From Candidatus Zymogenaceae bacterium (GTDB taxonomy: Bacteria; Desulfobacterota; Zymogenia; Zymogenales; Zymogenaceae): 64,000 nucleotides of DNA. Below the pieces are notes generated by a model. That model was not told the origin of the DNA. It ran no database searches and saw nothing but the letters and a program-made list of their open reading frames with translations. Shown piece after piece: positions 43,005-60,637 of the stretch (position 1 is its first letter; each line of letters begins with the position of its first letter). A program made the position numbers and the translations under genes. The stretch lies in assembly GCA_016931225.1 (NCBI GenBank), contig JAFGFE010000018.1, positions 186,001 to 250,000 of the forward strand. The letters run 5' to 3'.

Positions 43005-44144
43005 GTGCAAAGAGAAAAGACGCTGAAAGACCCAGAAAAAAGCAAGACGGGAGATACCAGGATACTGGTGGTGCGTCTTTCCGCCATCGGAGACGTCATT
43101 CGCACCCTTCCCGCCGTCTCCCTCATCAGGGAGAGGCTCCCCGGCGCCCATATCGCCTGGGTGACGGAAGAGGGCCCCTCAGGCGCCCTGGCCAATCGGG
43201 ATGACCTGGACGAGGTCATCATCTTTCCGCCGCGCATCAAGGAGCTTGCAAAAAACCCCCTTTTTTTACCGTTATTGGTGAAGGAGTTTCTCGCATTTAT
43301 GAAGGGGATACGCGCCCGGCGATACGATGCGGTGCTGGATTTTCACGGCCTGTTCAAAAGCGGGATCATCTCGTTGTTTTCGGGAGCTCCCGAGCGATAC
43401 GGATATGCGCGGCCCTTCACGAAGGAGATGAATTTTCTGTGCAACAACAACAGGACGGCGCTTTCCAGGGAAAAGCTTTCCCGGGTGCGCCGAAACCTGG
43501 CGCTTGCCCGCTTCTTTTTGGGTGAGGCGGACGATGGCACCATCCCCGTGGTGTATCTGCAAAGCTCCGACGAGGAGAAGCGGGAGGTGGACAAGATCGA
43601 GGCGGAGGCGTTCTCCGGCAGGAGGCCCCGCATCATCGTCCACCCGGGGACGTCCCCCCGAACGCCCTACAAGCGGTGGCCGGCGGAGCGGTTCGCACTG
43701 GCTGCGGATATCCTCGTACGGAAGACCGGGGGCGAGGTGCTGGTGACCTACGGCCCCGGCGAGGAAGAGACCGCGAGGCGGGTCGTCGGCGCCATGAAGG
43801 AGGGGGGGGCGCTGCTCTCCCGCATGCTGACCCTCACGGGGCTTTCGGAGTTGTTTCGCCGGGCGGATGTCTGTATCGGCGGGGATACCGGCCCCATGCA
43901 CGTGGCGTCCTTTTCGGCGACGCCGGTGGTCGTCGTCTTCGGCCCCACGGACCGGACGGAGAACGAGCCGTATCCGATCACCCCGTATCGAATCGTCTAT
44001 TGTGAGACCGACTGCGCCCCGTGCCGAAAGAGAACCTGCACCGACGGCGCCTGTTTCGCCGGAGTCACGCCGCAGATGGCGGCTGACGCCGTGATGGAGC
44101 TCCTCGGCGATGGGCGGGCGGACGCGGCGGGGGGGTCACCGTGA
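43005..44144 (+). CDS. Glycosyltransferase family 9, heptosyltransferase-like
   Basis: A 379-residue GT9 protein of the WaaC/WaaF/WaaQ group, which adds heptose from ADP-heptose to the LPS inner core at the inner membrane. Motifs: RLSAIGDVIRTLPAV near the start, VHPGTSPRTPYKRWPAERFA in the middle, and GGDTGPMHVASFSATPVVVVFGPTD, the nucleotide-sugar site. A cysteine-rich segment (CETDCAPCRKRTC) near 340 is seen in some members. It begins with GTG and opens the long glycan cluster. The next gene starts four bases inside its end. Confidence 0.92.
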   Translation: MQREKTLKDPEKSKTGDTRILVVRLSAIGDVIRTLPAVSLIRERLPGAHIAWVTEEGPSGALANRDDLDEVIIFPPRIKELAKNPLFLPLLVKEFLAFMKGIRARRYDAVLDFHGLFKSGIISLFSGAPERYGYARPFTKEMNFLCNNNRTALSREKLSRVRRNLALARFFLGEADDGTIPVVYLQSSDEEKREVDKIEAEAFSGRRPRIIVHPGTSPRTPYKRWPAERFALAADILVRKTGGEVLVTYGPGEEETARRVVGAMKEGGALLSRMLTLTGLSELFRRADVCIGGDTGPMHVASFSATPVVVVFGPTDRTENEPYPITPYRIVYCETDCAPCRKRTCTDGACFAGVTPQMAADAVMELLGDGRADAAGGSP

Positions 44145-45344: not shown

Positions 45345-46130
45345 ATGACCGCGGGACCACCTCCCATATCGGTGTACATGATCACCAAGGACAATATCAG
45401 AACGGTGGAAAAGGCGCTTTTGAGCGTTGTTCGTTGGGCCGATGAGATTGTGGCGGTGGACTCCGGCAGCACCGACGGCACCGTCGAGACCCTCAAACGA
45501 TATACCGACCGGGTCTATCACCGAGACTGGCCCGGATTCAGAGACCAGTATCAGCACGCCCAGGGCCTGACGAAGAACAAGTGGGTGTTGTTCATCGATG
45601 CGGACGAGGAGGTCGGCCCGGAGCTGGCCCGGGAGATCGCGGATCTCTTCGCCACGGGCGAGCCCAAGGCGGACGGATACATCACCCACCGCAGGACCTA
45701 TTACCTGGGCCGCCTCATCAGATACGGCGGTTGGTATCCGGACTTCGAGGTTCGCCTCTACAGAAAAGACAGAGGCGGGTGGAAGGGGGGGCTTCACGCC
45801 AAGGTGCATGTGGATGGCGTGGTAAAAGAGCTTGAGCACGTCTATCTCCACTATAACTATAAGGACATCGCGGACCAGATTCGGACCGTCAACCTCTATT
45901 CCGACATCGAGGCGGTGGACATGGACGAGGCGGATAAAAAGGTCAGCCTTTTCAAGATGCTCTTCAACCCGCCGTTTCGATTTTTCCGGGATTATCTGCT
46001 CAAGAGGGGCTTTCTGGACGGCATGCCGGGGCTGATCATCGCGGTGACCACCTCTTATTATCTCTTCGCGAAATACGCGAAGCTCTGGGAGCGGCGCACG
46101 GTGCTGCAGTCCGATGGGAAGGAGTCGTGA
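45345..46130 (+). CDS. Glycosyltransferase family 2 (WaaE/KdtX-like)
   Basis: A 261-residue GT-A enzyme. The N-terminal SVYMITKDNIRTVEKALLSV, the VDSGSTDGTVE box and FIDADEEVGPELA (the DxD site) match the WaaE/KdtX group that adds glucose to inner-core heptose. A late RRTYYLGRLIRYGGWYPD and FRLYRKDR-like segment is also typical. The C-terminus has a hydrophobic stretch (GLIIAVTTSYYLFAKY) for membrane attachment. In the LPS cluster, 34 bases after the GT4 gene. Confidence 0.9.
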   Translation: MTAGPPPISVYMITKDNIRTVEKALLSVVRWADEIVAVDSGSTDGTVETLKRYTDRVYHRDWPGFRDQYQHAQGLTKNKWVLFIDADEEVGPELAREIADLFATGEPKADGYITHRRTYYLGRLIRYGGWYPDFEVRLYRKDRGGWKGGLHAKVHVDGVVKELEHVYLHYNYKDIADQIRTVNLYSDIEAVDMDEADKKVSLFKMLFNPPFRFFRDYLLKRGFLDGMPGLIIAVTTSYYLFAKYAKLWERRTVLQSDGKES

Positions 46131-51896: not shown

Positions 51897-52973
51897 ATGC
51901 ACTCTCAAAGTGATATACATATCAAACTTGGTCCCTCACTGCAGCTTCCCGGGGACGATACGATGACCGTTCTCTGGGAAACCGACCGTCCCTGTATCGG
52001 CAGTGTTGCTTGTATTTCACCGGATGATGAAGAGAAAATTGTTATCTCCGACGATCAGACGGCGTCCACACGGCACCGGGTAACGATTACCGGACTGATC
52101 CCGAAGACCGTATATCGGTACCGGGTGAAAGCCGGGAATCGGGTGCTTCATGAATCGAGCTTTCGAACGCTGGTGAGAAGAAGCACCTATCGGGTGGCGA
52201 TCGCCGGGGATATCCATGCCCCCCGGGAGGAGTTCGGCTATATTGTCCCCATGCTTCAGGAGAGCGATCCTGACTTCATGATTTTTCTGGGCGATTTTGT
52301 GTACCGGAGCGACGAAAACTACTGGCCCGCCTTCTTCCGTATGGGACGGGACCTGTTCGATCGTGTTCCCCTCTTCCCGGTGGTGGGAGATCACGATCTG
52401 GGCCTGCGGGATAAATATGGGCTCTTTTCCCGGTATTTCTGTACCCCCAACAAAAATGGACGCTATTCTTTTTGTTATGCCCGGACCGTCTCCAATGACG
52501 TGCTGTTGTTTTTCGATTCAACCAGGATACTCGGTTTCTACTGGCAGGCGCTCCGGTTATATCGGTACGTGAAGAAACAGGCGAAAGAGGGAAAGCTTCG
52601 ATATCTCTTCGTGTTCGCCCACAAGGGCCCGATCAGTTTCAAGGGGGAGCGCCCGGGGTTGTACGGTATCCGAACCCTCTTCGGCATGCTGAAGCGGTAT
52701 GGGGTGACCGCGATCTTTTCCGGTCACGATCATCACTATGTCCGGGGGCGCTCTCACGGCGGCATCCCTCTGTTTGTCTCGGGCGGAGCGGGGGGCGGCA
52801 GGCCCTACAAGATAAATCCGGACAATATCCACGCCCGGCTGTCCGGCAGCATGGAATACGGCGAGGTCTGCCGTCACTTCCTTGTGCTGGATGTTTCCGA
52901 TGACGAATGCTCGGTGACGGCGGTGGATGAAACGGGGCGGATTGTCGAGAAAACGAGGCTCTCGCCTCTCTGA
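51897..52973 (+). CDS. Purple-acid-phosphatase-like metallophosphoesterase
   Basis: A 358-residue protein. Residues about 8-92 look like the fibronectin-III-type N-domain of purple acid phosphatases (TMTVLWETD, GLIPKTVYRYRVKAG). The calcineurin-like domain follows: AGDIHAPRE (Asp105, His107), FLGDFVYRSDE (Asp133), VVGDHDLGL in place of the usual GNHE, AHKGP, and FSGHDHHYVRG. The metal ligands are mostly in place, but Asn in GNHE is Asp166. There is no signal peptide, so it is probably cytoplasmic. It sits in the glycan cluster and could remove a phosphate from an intermediate; unproven. Confidence 0.82.
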   Translation: MHSQSDIHIKLGPSLQLPGDDTMTVLWETDRPCIGSVACISPDDEEKIVISDDQTASTRHRVTITGLIPKTVYRYRVKAGNRVLHESSFRTLVRRSTYRVAIAGDIHAPREEFGYIVPMLQESDPDFMIFLGDFVYRSDENYWPAFFRMGRDLFDRVPLFPVVGDHDLGLRDKYGLFSRYFCTPNKNGRYSFCYARTVSNDVLLFFDSTRILGFYWQALRLYRYVKKQAKEGKLRYLFVFAHKGPISFKGERPGLYGIRTLFGMLKRYGVTAIFSGHDHHYVRGRSHGGIPLFVSGGAGGGRPYKINPDNIHARLSGSMEYGEVCRHFLVLDVSDDECSVTAVDETGRIVEKTRLSPL

Positions 52974-53069
52974 GAGTAGGGACACGCCATCGAACGAATC
53001 GAGTATATACGGCGCACATCGGCGCATTTTGACTGGCATATCCGCCGGGGCTGGGAGAAACTGGCCCTG

Positions 53070-54656
53070 GTGGATTTTTTCGTGCCTGAAGCGCTCACGG
53101 AAACCGTCGAGAACAACGTGCGGATTCATGGATTTTTTCCTTGGGGAGAAAAAAGGCTTTTCGTCAAGCTCTTCAAAGGGATGTCAACGGCCGAGCGTAT
53201 CAAGTCTTTGTTTCTCGGCTGCAAGGCGATGAGGGAATTCAGGGCGGGGCGATATCTCGCACTGCGGGGCGTCCGGACGCCGACGATATGTGCCGTGGGA
53301 ATGGAAAGGGGCGGAAGGAAGAGGGCTGTCCTCGTCTTCGAGGAGGCCGAAGGGGCCGAATCCGTGCACTGGCTTCTCGAAAAACGGGGGATTGCCGACC
53401 TTTCCGGTCTCACAGAGGGGCTGTCGGATATCACGGCAACCCTCCACGATGCGGGATTTTATCACCGGGATTACCATGTCGGCAACCTCCTGGCAGCGTC
53501 GGAAAATGTCCGTGACCTGATCGTCATCGACCTGCATCGCGCGTCCCACCCCCGCTCCATGTCCGGCAGACGGGGCCTTGAAAACATCGCGGACCTTCTC
53601 CAGTCCGTGACACCGGACGGGGACCCCGCGGTCATCAGGTCCTTTCTCACGCGCTATCTGGAACGGAGGCCGGACGTTTCCTGGGGACTTTCCGACGGTG
53701 CGGCGTATGTCGAAAGACGCGTCGCCGCCCGGGAGCGGCGTCGGCTTTTAAGCCGCACGAAGCGATGCTTTAAAAACTCCACCGAATATTTCGCCGTCCG
53801 CACGAAGGGGACTCTACTCTTCGGCAGGAGGGCTGCGTTCGCGGACGGCGGCCGGAACCCGAAGGGGGCGCTGGATGACATCCTCTCCCTGGTTCGCCGT
53901 CTCGAGACGAACGGCGGCGATGTCATCAAGGACGACACCAAGGCCCGGGTGATCCTGATTTCGGGAAAAGACGGAGAGGTGTGCGTCAAAGCGTATGAGC
54001 GATTGTCCGTGGGGGAGCGGATGCGGACGTTTTTCAGAATGTCCCGGGGCCATCGTTCCTGGCGCGCGGCCCGGGGGCTTTTTGTAAGGGGATTTTCGGT
54101 GCCGGCTCCAATCGCGCTGTTGGTTCGAAAGAAGCTGGGCGTCCCTGCGGCCGTCTATCTGGTGACCGACTCCATCAGGAGACACGCCGCCCTGGAGCTG
54201 GATCGTTTCATCCTCTCGATACAGACGGACGGGGAGATTCTTGTGCGGTGCGTAACGGCCGTCGCGCGGCTTTTGGGATCGATGCACCGAATGGGGATTT
54301 ACCACCGGGATCTGAAGGCCACGAATATCGCCGTTCGGACGTCACCTGAAGGCGATCAAATGGAGCTGTTTCTTCTGGATCTCGACGCCGTGGCCTTCGG
54401 CGATCGGGTGCCGGTAGCCTCGATGGCCAAGAACCTGACCCAGCTTCATCTCTCGACCCCGTCGGTGATCGGTGGTGACCTTCGGCGTTTGTTTTTTTCC
54501 GAATATCGGGATATGCTGGGAGACGACGGAATCGCAGGACGTGTGTGTGAGAGGCTTCCCGAATTGATCCGCGGCGAGGATATCCTGTACGTATCCCCGG
54601 AGGGGGATGTGACCGAATCGGCGGCCTCGCTTTTTCAGGAATTGTTTGAGAAATGA
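53070..54656 (+). CDS. Tandem two-domain Kdo/WaaP-like LPS kinase
   Basis: A 528-residue protein with two kinase-like halves. The first has Lys33 (FVKLFKG), YHRDYHVGN (Asp134, Asn139) and VIDLHRAS (Asp154). The second has Lys308 (CVKAYE), YHRDLKATN (Asp414, Asn419) and LLDLDAVAFG (Asp437). The key residues of the Kdo kinase/WaaP family are thus kept in both. Such enzymes phosphorylate Kdo or heptose of the LPS inner core. The GTG at 53070 is the first standard start; the frame continues open upstream to 52980 with coding-like sequence (IERIEYIRRTSAHFDWHIRRGWE), so the true start may be a rare codon upstream. asnB follows six bases after the stop. Confidence 0.82.
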   Translation: MDFFVPEALTETVENNVRIHGFFPWGEKRLFVKLFKGMSTAERIKSLFLGCKAMREFRAGRYLALRGVRTPTICAVGMERGGRKRAVLVFEEAEGAESVHWLLEKRGIADLSGLTEGLSDITATLHDAGFYHRDYHVGNLLAASENVRDLIVIDLHRASHPRSMSGRRGLENIADLLQSVTPDGDPAVIRSFLTRYLERRPDVSWGLSDGAAYVERRVAARERRRLLSRTKRCFKNSTEYFAVRTKGTLLFGRRAAFADGGRNPKGALDDILSLVRRLETNGGDVIKDDTKARVILISGKDGEVCVKAYERLSVGERMRTFFRMSRGHRSWRAARGLFVRGFSVPAPIALLVRKKLGVPAAVYLVTDSIRRHAALELDRFILSIQTDGEILVRCVTAVARLLGSMHRMGIYHRDLKATNIAVRTSPEGDQMELFLLDLDAVAFGDRVPVASMAKNLTQLHLSTPSVIGGDLRRLFFSEYRDMLGDDGIAGRVCERLPELIRGEDILYVSPEGDVTESAASLFQELFEK

Positions 54657-54662
54657 GAGAGA

Positions 54663-56567
54663 ATGTGCGGAATAGTCGGTGTTTTTAACCGGGACGGCGC
54701 GCCCGTCGATAAGGGCATGCTCACGCGCATGCGGGACGTCCTCGGCCACCGGGGTCCGGACGGGTATGGGAACTATCTGTCACCCCCCGGCGTGACGCCG
54801 TCGGTGGGTCTGGGGCATCGGCGTCTTGCGATCATCGATTTGACAGAAGGCGGCGCACAGCCCATGCGGAGCGCCGATGGAAGATATCATATCGTCTACA
54901 ACGGCGAGATCTATAATTTTCTCGAACTCAAAGATGAGCTGAAGGGGTTGGGATATACCTTTTCCTCCCGCTCGGATACCGAGGTGATCCTGACGGGATA
55001 CCGGGAGTGGGGAGAGGCGGTGGTGCATCGCCTGGTGGGGATGTTCAGCCTAGCCGTGTGGGACGAGGGGGAGAAGCGCCTCTTTCTGGCCCGGGATCCG
55101 TACGGGATCAAACCGCTGATCTATCGATGGGACGGACAATCGTTTTTGTTTTCATCGGAGATCAAGGGCATCATCGCCTCAGGTGTCGCGGACGGCGGTC
55201 TGGACGAGACGGCACTGATGTATTATCTTTCCCTCAACTACATCCCCGCGCCGCTCACCATCTACACAGACATCAAAAAGCTCCCGCCGGGGCATGCAAT
55301 CCGGGTCGATACAGGCGGCATGACGGTCTATCGATATTACGATCTCAAAGAACGGGTCGCGGGGATGGACGCCCTTTCCTACGACGATGCGACAGCCGCC
55401 CTCCGGGAGCGGGTGGAGCGGGCCGTCCGTCGCCGCCTGATTTCAGACGTCCCCCTGGGCGCCTTTTTGAGCGGGGGGCTGGATTCCTCCATCATCACCT
55501 GTGTGATGGACGGGATGGGGGTTCAGACCCGTACCTTTTCCATCGGCTTTTCCGATCAGCAAAGGTTCGACGAGACCGGTTATGCCAAGGCCGTCATCGA
55601 ACGGGGCGCGCATATCGAGCCGACCATTCACCGGATCGGCGCCGATGACCTGTTTGATCTCATTCCCCGGGTTCTGGACTCCCTGGACGAGCCCTTCGGG
55701 GACAGCTCGGTCATCCCGACGTTCATGGTCTCGAAAAAGACCAGGGAGCGGGTGACGGTGGCCTTGTCCGGAGACGGGGCCGACGAGGTGTTCGGCGGGT
55801 ACTGGAAGTATCTCGGGGAGGTGTTTATGGGATTGTACCGCCTCATACCGGGCCGCAGGGTCGTGATCCCCCCCCTGTTGTCGCGCCTTCCGGCGAGCAA
55901 GGGAAGCGGGATCGGTGAGGCGGTGAGGAAGATGAGGAAGTTCGTCTCCGGCGACCATGACGATCCCGCGGTGCGTCACTACCGGTGGCTGACGAATTTT
56001 TCCCAGGCCCGGGGTGAGGAGTACCTGTCGAGTGATCTCATCGATCGGTTCGGTCTTGACGATCCGGCGGCGAGGAAGGTCGAACACCTGTACGAAGCGT
56101 TCCAGTCAGACCGCAAAAACCGGATGTTCTACTGCGACTTCAACCTGACCCTCCCCGACGACATGCTGGTGAAGGTGGACCTGATGAGCATGCAGAATTC
56201 ACTGGAGGTGCGGGTTCCGTTTCTGGACACCGAGGTAGTGGAGCTCGCCTTTTCTCTGGCCGGCTCGTACAAGCTTTCCGGCACGACGAGGAAAAGGATC
56301 CTTCAGGACGCCTTTCGCGATATATTGCCTCCCATGATCGTCGGGCGTCCCAAACAGGGATTTGAGATGCCCATCGGCGAGTGGTTCAAGGGACGGCTGG
56401 GACCCATGTTCCATGATGTGGTGACCAGAAAAGGGGTGGACGACCTGGGCGTGTTTCGATATGATGCAGTGAAAAGGCTTTTAGAGCGGCACACCGACGG
56501 TCGGGCTGACGCCACTTTTACGCTCTGGAATATTTTTTTGCTGCAATGGTGGGCGGCGAATCACTGA
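54663..56567 (+). CDS. asnB: Asparagine synthase (glutamine-hydrolysing) family protein
   Basis: A 634-residue AsnB-type amidotransferase. The N-terminal glutaminase domain begins MCGIVGVFN with the nucleophile Cys2, and has HRGPDG and YNGEIYN. The synthetase domain has the PP-loop SGGLDSS (270-276), ALSGDGADEVFGGYWKY and VRVPFLD. Asparagine synthesis is the default reaction, but in surface-glycan clusters AsnB relatives amidate uronic acids (WbpS and WbmI types). Its position among glycosyltransferases and near a UDP-glucuronate-decarboxylase-like SDR favours that role as inference. It lies six bases after the kinase gene and four before a GT4 gene. Confidence 0.92.
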   Translation: MCGIVGVFNRDGAPVDKGMLTRMRDVLGHRGPDGYGNYLSPPGVTPSVGLGHRRLAIIDLTEGGAQPMRSADGRYHIVYNGEIYNFLELKDELKGLGYTFSSRSDTEVILTGYREWGEAVVHRLVGMFSLAVWDEGEKRLFLARDPYGIKPLIYRWDGQSFLFSSEIKGIIASGVADGGLDETALMYYLSLNYIPAPLTIYTDIKKLPPGHAIRVDTGGMTVYRYYDLKERVAGMDALSYDDATAALRERVERAVRRRLISDVPLGAFLSGGLDSSIITCVMDGMGVQTRTFSIGFSDQQRFDETGYAKAVIERGAHIEPTIHRIGADDLFDLIPRVLDSLDEPFGDSSVIPTFMVSKKTRERVTVALSGDGADEVFGGYWKYLGEVFMGLYRLIPGRRVVIPPLLSRLPASKGSGIGEAVRKMRKFVSGDHDDPAVRHYRWLTNFSQARGEEYLSSDLIDRFGLDDPAARKVEHLYEAFQSDRKNRMFYCDFNLTLPDDMLVKVDLMSMQNSLEVRVPFLDTEVVELAFSLAGSYKLSGTTRKRILQDAFRDILPPMIVGRPKQGFEMPIGEWFKGRLGPMFHDVVTRKGVDDLGVFRYDAVKRLLERHTDGRADATFTLWNIFLLQWWAANH

Positions 56568-58834: not shown

Positions 58835-60637
58835 ATGAGCGGGACCTATACAATCGTCCTCTTGTCGTTCATCGGGGCGTTGATGGTTTCGTGGGTGGGA
58901 ACCAGAATTGTCATCTTCCTTGCCCCCCGCTTCGGCTGGATTGCAGAGATTTCAAGAGACCGCTGGCATACCCAACCAACTGCCTTGATGGGGGGGATCG
59001 CCATTTATACGGCGATCGTCACGAGCATACTGGTCTTCTTCATACTCCTGTCCGATTTCAACGATCGACGGGTATGGGGACTCCTGCTGGGAAGCACCAT
59101 GATATTCATCCTGGGGTTGATCGACGACAGGAAGTATGTGTCCCCGCTGGTCAAAATCATCGTTCAGGTAGCCGCCGCCGGTGTGGTGGTGATCTTCGGA
59201 GCCTTTTCCGAGTTTTTTCCTCCGCTCATCGGGATACCGCTGTCTATCTTCTGGATCATCGCCATCACCAACGCATTTAACCTGATAGACAATATGGACG
59301 GCCTGTCTTCGGGAATCGCGGCCATCACGTCCCTGTGTATCATGGTGCTGTCTTTATTGATGGGGTGGCATGAAACGGCGGTCCTGGCGGCGGTCATGGT
59401 CGGCGCCGCTTTGGGATTTTTACGCTACAATTTCAATCCCGCACGGATTTTCATGGGGGATTGCGGCGCCCTGTTGATCGGTTTTTACCTTGCGGTCATC
59501 ACCCTCATCGGAACCATGACTCACATGTCCAACGTCATTGTCGTACTCGTGGTGCCGCTGTTGGTGATGGCTGTCCCCATCCTGGACACCACGTTCGTGA
59601 CGGTCATGCGAACGATCTCGGGACGCCCCTTCTACCAGGGGGGGAGGGATCATACCTCGCACCGGATGGTGATACAGGGGATGTCCGAGCGGAGAGCGGT
59701 GCTCTATATTTATTTTTTCTCGCTGGTCTTCGGGCTGTTCGCGGTTCTTTTCGCCCTGCCCGGGGTGAACCTCGTCCCGGTGGCGGTACTTTTGATCGTC
59801 ATGGTCATCTTCCTGTTTCTGTTGGGATTATTTCTGGGAAGAGCGGAGGTAGGGGATGCAAGGCAGCGGGCCGCCCGGCCGGGAAGGGATAGGGCGATCA
59901 CCGATCGAATCTCGCAGAGGCGGAGACGCCTTTTTGAGATCGTGGCGGATTCGCTGAACGTCATCGCAGCGTATATATTGGCGTATCTGATCATCGGGCA
60001 GTGGTATATCGATCCCGAGACGGCTTTCCGCATCGGCCAATCGCTCCCCATTTTCATCTTTTTCCAGATGGTCTCCTTTTACTTTTTCGGCCTGTATCGA
60101 AGGCTGCCGGAGTTTGTCTCCCTCTCCGATGTGCTGCTGGTGGTGCTGGCCGCCGCCCTGGGGACGGTGGTATCGTCCGTCGTATTATTCCTCTTCACGT
60201 TCTTTCAGGGGTACTCATCGTCGGTGATGATCGTCTATTTCCTTATCGTGTCGTTCCTTGTGTCGGCCCGCCTGACCAGTCTTCGATGGTTTAAGGAATA
60301 TTTCACCCAGCAGCGGGCCAGAAAAGAGCTGCGGCGTGTCTTAATTTTCGGAGCGGGCGATTCCGGCAACGCCGTTCTCCAGGAGATACTGAACAACCGG
60401 AATCTGGGCCTGAGGCCGCTGTGCTTTCTTGACGACGATCCGGCCAAGAGAGGAAGCATGATCAGCGGCGTGAAGGTGAGGGGAGACAGGAAGTGTATGA
60501 AAGCGGTCATCGAGGAACGACGGATCGACGAGGTGATCATCGCGGTCAGGAACCTCCCCGATGATGTCGGGGAATACATAGAACAAATCTGCGGAGATAT
60601 GGGAGTTTCCGTCCGACGAGCGGGGAACATCATTTAA
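58835..60637 (+). CDS. Fusion of a WecA/MraY-type polyprenyl-phosphate sugar-1-P transferase and a WbpM-like N-terminal region
   Basis: A 600-residue membrane protein. Residues 1-335 form the transferase: LGLIDDRKY (Asp97, Asp98), NAFNLIDNMDGLSSG (146-160), FMGDCGALLIGF (206-217) and GGRDHTSHR (269-277), as in WecA and RfbP-type enzymes that start O-antigen units on undecaprenyl phosphate. After a charged linker (340-368) come four membrane spans (about 370-480) and a Rossmann part (RVLIFGAGDSGNAVLQEIL, CFLDDDPAKRGSMISGVKVRG), which match the front half of WbpM/CapD nucleotide-sugar dehydratases. The catalytic SDR half is absent. The SDR gene at 60650 follows by 12 bases. Confidence 0.88.
   Translation: MSGTYTIVLLSFIGALMVSWVGTRIVIFLAPRFGWIAEISRDRWHTQPTALMGGIAIYTAIVTSILVFFILLSDFNDRRVWGLLLGSTMIFILGLIDDRKYVSPLVKIIVQVAAAGVVVIFGAFSEFFPPLIGIPLSIFWIIAITNAFNLIDNMDGLSSGIAAITSLCIMVLSLLMGWHETAVLAAVMVGAALGFLRYNFNPARIFMGDCGALLIGFYLAVITLIGTMTHMSNVIVVLVVPLLVMAVPILDTTFVTVMRTISGRPFYQGGRDHTSHRMVIQGMSERRAVLYIYFFSLVFGLFAVLFALPGVNLVPVAVLLIVMVIFLFLLGLFLGRAEVGDARQRAARPGRDRAITDRISQRRRRLFEIVADSLNVIAAYILAYLIIGQWYIDPETAFRIGQSLPIFIFFQMVSFYFFGLYRRLPEFVSLSDVLLVVLAAALGTVVSSVVLFLFTFFQGYSSSVMIVYFLIVSFLVSARLTSLRWFKEYFTQQRARKELRRVLIFGAGDSGNAVLQEILNNRNLGLRPLCFLDDDPAKRGSMISGVKVRGDRKCMKAVIEERRIDEVIIAVRNLPDDVGEYIEQICGDMGVSVRRAGNII

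Follow-up and report, generated by a model that had tools for sequence, protein, structure and literature searches.

Metal bridges between the inner-core phosphates of lipopolysaccharide (LPS) keep the outer membrane together, and growth of Pseudomonas aeruginosa depends on these phosphates. The LPS core kinases that have been characterised, WaaP and WaaY of E. coli and WaaP of P. aeruginosa, are single-domain proteins (PMC6147952), as the original prediction had stated; the bacteria studied use separate one-domain enzymes. The window, by which we mean the whole 64,000-nucleotide stretch of DNA analysed here, carries a gene in which two such domains are joined, offering a way to ask whether one protein adds two phosphates to the core. 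Its C-terminal half raises the further question of whether activity is possible in a small-molecule kinase that lacks the αC Glu but has a Lys of the protein kinase type. The relevant features are collected in Table 1.

Table 1. Tandem kinase gene, its catalytic elements and selected neighbours, in window coordinates (D1, N-terminal half; D2, C-terminal half)
Feature	Position	Strand	Evidence
GT9 heptosyltransferase-like gene, cluster start	43005..44144	+	PF01075 125 bits; TIGR02193 142 bits
GT2 gene, WaaE/KdtX-like	45345..46130	+	PF00535
Calcineurin-like phosphoesterase, purple-acid-phosphatase-type N-terminus	51897..52973	+	PF00149, PF16656
Probable full coding region, tandem kinase	52989..54656	+	555 codons if ATC 52989 is the start
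ORF as called, tandem PF06293 kinase	53070..54656	+	528 aa, both halves PF06293
Kinase domain 1	53121..53609	+	PF06293 residues 18-180; HRDYHVGN loop, DLHR metal loop; WaaP side of tree
K33 codon, D1 ATP-binding Lys	53166..53168	+	51/51 tandem homologues
E56 codon, D1 αC Glu	53235..53237	+	50/51, one gap
D1 catalytic loop H132-R-D134-Y-H136-V-G-N139	53463..53486	+	Residue check and 51-sequence alignment
D1 metal-binding D154-L-H-R157	53529..53540	+	DLHR as in WaaP
Linker motif SRTKRCFKNS, between D1 and D2	53751..53780	+	Conserved; alignments of 17 and 51 homologues
Kinase domain 2, residues 237-505	53778..54584	+	PF06293 match 54033-54485
K307 codon, D2 ATP-binding Lys (VCVK307AY)	53988..53990	+	49/51
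S330-W331, D2 αC Glu position lost	54057..54062	+	Glu 0/51; Trp 51/51
D2 catalytic loop H412-R-D414-L-K416-A-T-N419	54303..54326	+	H, D, K, N each 49/49
D2 metal-binding D437-L-D439	54378..54386	+	D437 49/49

The ORF as called (53070-54656, plus strand) is translated without an internal stop. Searched alone, D1 (residues 1-236) matched PF06293 (Kdo/WaaP) with an E value of 9e-14 and 51.8 bits, and D2 (residues 237-528) with 2e-13 and 50.7 bits, the cutoff being 21.3, which bears out the original prediction of two Kdo/WaaP-like kinase domains in one protein. The catalytic residues it listed for D1 (K33, D134, N139 and D154) are all present as numbered; for D2, D414, N419 and D437 were correct, but the ATP-binding Lys is K307, residue 308 being Ala. 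The claim that both catalytic sets are complete likewise holds for the Lys, the HRD-type Asp and Asn and the metal-binding Asp, but not for the αC Glu, which was found in D1 (E56) and is replaced in D2 (S330).

Across 51 tandem sequences, D1 retains N139 and D154 in 50/51 each and D134 in 46/51 (Glu in the other five), counts that are not independent because the set includes near-duplicate entries. The D1 signature, HxDxHxxN with the αC Glu, is almost fixed in this set. In D2, D414, K416, N419 and D437 are each kept in 49/49 of the sequences with the region present, and the exceptions all come from one degenerate second ORF that was counted twice (L103/L129). The D2 signature reads HxDxKxxN, its Lys being one that protein kinases typically have, and includes an invariant Trp after the αC position; this position is Ala, Ser or Gly in most of the 51 sequences and Glu in none. 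Such near-invariance places the residue pattern far beyond chance, and the retention of catalytic residues in both halves argues that both active sites are under selection. One tandem departs from the D1 pattern (L022:1333-2970, genome G036), with D134, N139 and D154 changed to Glu, His and Gly and D2 intact.

Among solved structures, WaaP (6dfl) was the top match for both halves: the D1 family profile aligned over the whole core with 88.8 bits (E 3e-24), and the D2 family profile reached 56.3 bits (E 2e-14), followed by the Ser/Thr kinases STK33 and DCLK1, whose matches were centred on the catalytic loop. D2 alone scored 19.3 bits against Pfam Pkinase, under the cutoff of 31.7. On the tree, D1 lies on the WaaP side and D2 on the opposite side, near KdkA-like single kinases, with modest support for the deep branches; tests of a single clade gave p 0.059 for all D1 and p 0.13 for all D2. 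A recent internal duplication was rejected as the origin of the tandem, given an identity of 20% between the halves and the grouping of each with others of its type. Structure prediction for two sequences, the window protein and L023, gave a mean pLDDT of 35 and a pTM of 0.24, values too low for a usable model.

WaaP (RfaP), the heptose I kinase of P. aeruginosa and E. coli (PDB 6DFL), shares the PF06293 kinase fold with the tandem, and its Lys, αC Glu, HRD Asp and DLHR metal loop are all matched by D1; the core gene neighbourhood is also alike. It differs in having one domain of ~265 aa and no second domain, and its catalytic loop reads HRDCYICH where D1 has HRDYHVGN, the essential Y165 and H168 of WaaP being His and Asn in D1. 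P. aeruginosa WaaP cannot function without the Arg of DLHR (R191A; PMC6147952). In family f13 (L007, L009, L110, L112 and L113), a single lineage, DLHR of D1 is DLYP or DLFP in 5/5. The Kdo kinase KdkA (PRK01723/NF002475) belongs to the same family, with one domain as against two. Both halves score weakly and similarly against the NCBIfam equivalogs: D1 35.6 bits for WaaP and 33.4 for KdkA, D2 34.4 and 35.8 (33 to 36 bits for KdkA and WaaP alike), under cutoffs of 170 and 142, respectively. The whole protein reaches 66.6 bits against the WaaP model. The P. aeruginosa putative LPS kinase PA5006 is at least 493 aa long and lies in the core operon PA5006-PA5012 with WaaP, WapP and WapQ (PMC8707732). 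Compared by length and operon, it would fit two domains and may be a known member of the tandem type.

The gene cluster is LPS-core-like, containing a heptosyltransferase-like GT9 and a WaaE-like GT2. Its order is GT9, GT4, WaaE-like GT2, DegT, epimerase, GT4, GT2, GT4, phosphoesterase and tandem kinase, continuing 3' with asparagine synthase-like, GT4, epimerase, WecA-like, epimerase and GT2 genes. The GT9 product scores 142 bits against the heptosyltransferase I model TIGR02193, under its cutoff of 185. The GT2 at 45345 presumably resembles the WaaE/KdtX core glucosyltransferases, and none of the NCBIfam models matched it. The phosphoesterase lies directly 5' of the tandem kinase, a neighbour shared only with L054 and L055, and in relatives from several families the tandem stays beside GT9, WaaE-like and GT4 genes. 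The asparagine synthase-like product (54663-56567) is over the asparagine synthase cutoff, and is near an XrtA/PEP-CTERM amidotransferase model at 492 bits, under the cutoff of 817. The WecA-like phosphotransferase (58835-60637) carries, as a fusion, a domain of the CoA_binding_3 type, which EPS sugar transferases have at their N-terminus.

Another locus of the genome encodes LpxB, MsbA, WaaA, LpxK and WaaF along with a KdkA-like single kinase, which lies beside waaA and scores 126 bits against the KdkA cutoff of 142. GmhA is present as well, and no PF06293 protein was found in the genome besides the tandem and this single kinase. The presence of a separate KdkA-like kinase at the lipid A/WaaA/WaaF locus makes heptose or core phosphorylation the likeliest job for the tandem. 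By this elimination, and by the likeness of D1 to WaaP, the tandem kinase is the candidate for core heptose phosphorylation.

The tandem, which the original prediction set apart from the normal single-domain kinases, proved to be widespread in its lineage. A search of 59 related genomes returned 17 tandem proteins in 16 genomes, the window included, and homologues are 22-41% identical to the window protein. In a profile search, tandems of nearly full length (400 or more of the 554 profile positions, tallied by hand) were found in ~70/297 sampled genomes of the same phylum as the window genome and in ~88/199 genomes of Planctomycetota, the phylum of the Planctomycetes genome G059. The tandem is therefore not a one-off but common in at least two phyla. 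Unnamed PF06293 tandems in both phyla share the layout, linker motif and signatures of the window protein, and differ from it in that some have extra N-terminal sequence or have lost one half. A search of viral contigs for relatives of the tandem kinase found none; a plasmid search returned one Parabacteroides single kinase and a phage search two unannotated gut contigs. No paper describing a tandem LPS kinase was found in a literature search, and the tandem is apparently an unstudied, if widespread, form of a known enzyme family.

We favour, at about even probability, a two-headed Kdo/WaaP sugar kinase of the lipid A-core, joined early, with D1 as a heptose kinase and D2 adding a second phosphate. 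Working on the cytoplasmic side of the inner membrane, such an enzyme would take as its substrate a lipid A-core built by the neighbouring GT9, GT4 and WaaE-like enzymes. D1 has the fold family, catalytic residues and DLHR loop of a WaaP-type kinase, and its acceptor would be heptose; D2 would be a divergent ATP-dependent kinase, placing its phosphate on another hydroxyl of the same core. The profile, and in part the tree, point to two active sites that were fused early and inherited jointly, and we infer both the activity of the two heads and the order of phosphorylation. Addition of two phosphates in one pass, as originally proposed, is plausible, and given their different catalytic loops D1 and D2 need not share the same chemistry. 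Against a core kinase stand the scores of both halves under the curated WaaP and KdkA cutoffs, the His and Asn of D1 in place of the essential Y165 and H168, the missing αC Glu of D2, the lost D1 catalytic residues of L022, and two family f13 genomes (G015 and G052; tandem present, D1 with DLYP) in which a search for GmhA gave no match.

The main rival, unlikely in our estimate, is that only one half phosphorylates the core sugar, the other being a (pseudo)kinase with a regulatory or scaffolding role, which would place the acceptor or anchor the protein at the membrane. The αC Glu absent from D2 in 51/51 is the residue whose loss in P. aeruginosa WaaP (E78A) strongly impairs the enzyme, lowering EDTA tolerance at least 100-fold, and the stability of WaaP itself requires a partner, acyl-ACP (PMC6147952). 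The dead D1 beside an intact D2 in L022 suggests that some tandems manage without two active heads, and L103/L129 carry a second ORF with a degenerate D2. However, K307, D414, K416, N419 and D437 are almost invariant, and a pseudokinase need not keep them. The tandem might instead act on a different glycan made by the cluster, O-antigen or exopolysaccharide, for instance by capping its end with a phosphate as the WbdD kinase does. In favour of this, genes for a WecA-like transferase, epimerases, an asparagine synthase-like amidotransferase and several GT4 and GT2 enzymes are also present in the cluster, and some relatives lack GT9 or GmhA. We consider this reading distinctly improbable: in G022, G006, G036 and G025 the tandem has a WaaE-like gene, and mostly a GT9 gene too, a few kb away, and WaaP is the nearest solved kinase for both halves.

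Two further readings concern the chemistry of D2, whose loop, H412-R-D-L-K416-x-x-N419, is the HRDLKxxN of Ser/Thr protein kinases. As a rule, eukaryotic-type protein kinases have a catalytic-loop Lys or Arg and small-molecule kinases of the superfamily do not (PMC4702295); among the single-domain relatives here, the D2-type Lys is absent except in L018 ORF1. D2 may be a new type of kinase with an LPS-kinase fold, an ePK-like Lys and no Lys-Glu bridge, which either phosphorylates a protein, perhaps D1, or feeds D1 as part of a two-step enzyme, the pair serving core assembly; this ranks below the glycan-cap reading in probability. Least probable of all is that D2 is a protein kinase proper, controlling core assembly by phosphorylating D1 or a partner. 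The invariant HxDLKxxN and the placing of STK33 and DCLK1 directly after WaaP fit this idea, whereas the WaaP-type flanks, the sugar cluster location and the centring of the protein kinase matches on the catalytic loop speak against it.

The GTG at 53070 is probably too late as the start of the tandem kinase, since the reading frame extends back to 52980 without a stop, relatives start earlier, and an AGGGA (52978-52982) lies 6 nt 5' of the ATC codon at 52989. Homologues begin ~30 residues N-terminal of the called GTG. The closest relatives, L004 and L005, start directly 3' of a phosphoesterase gene and resemble the window upstream translation S..FDWHIRRGWEKL. The residues SAHFDWHIRRGWEKL, translated 5' of 53070, can be aligned with the L004 and L005 starts, and shuffled sequences scored equally well in 10/500 and 12/500 cases, a chance of ~2 in 100. 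No ATG, GTG or TTG codon was found in this frame 5' of 53070. From these sequence comparisons, the real protein would have ~555 aa, with translation beginning either at ATC 52989 itself or at a codon with one base altered there.

The search for fused and split homologues that had been suggested showed fused forms to be common and gave no true split. In G194 the two ORFs are separated by a run of N (an assembly gap), and in G294 one lies in another frame and overlaps its partner, through a frameshift or an error; both were rejected as split tandems. Genome G055 (L018:1393-2992) has two adjacent separate kinases with an overlap of ~38 bases, the D2-like one (HGDLKWPN) first and the WaaP-like one (133.8 bits, cutoff 170) second, the reverse of the order in the tandem; this pair counts in favour of the two-headed core kinase. 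Single ORFs in L071:8759-10447 (563 aa) and L131:11718-13679 (654 aa) encode a glycosyltransferase of family GT2 fused to a D2-like kinase domain.
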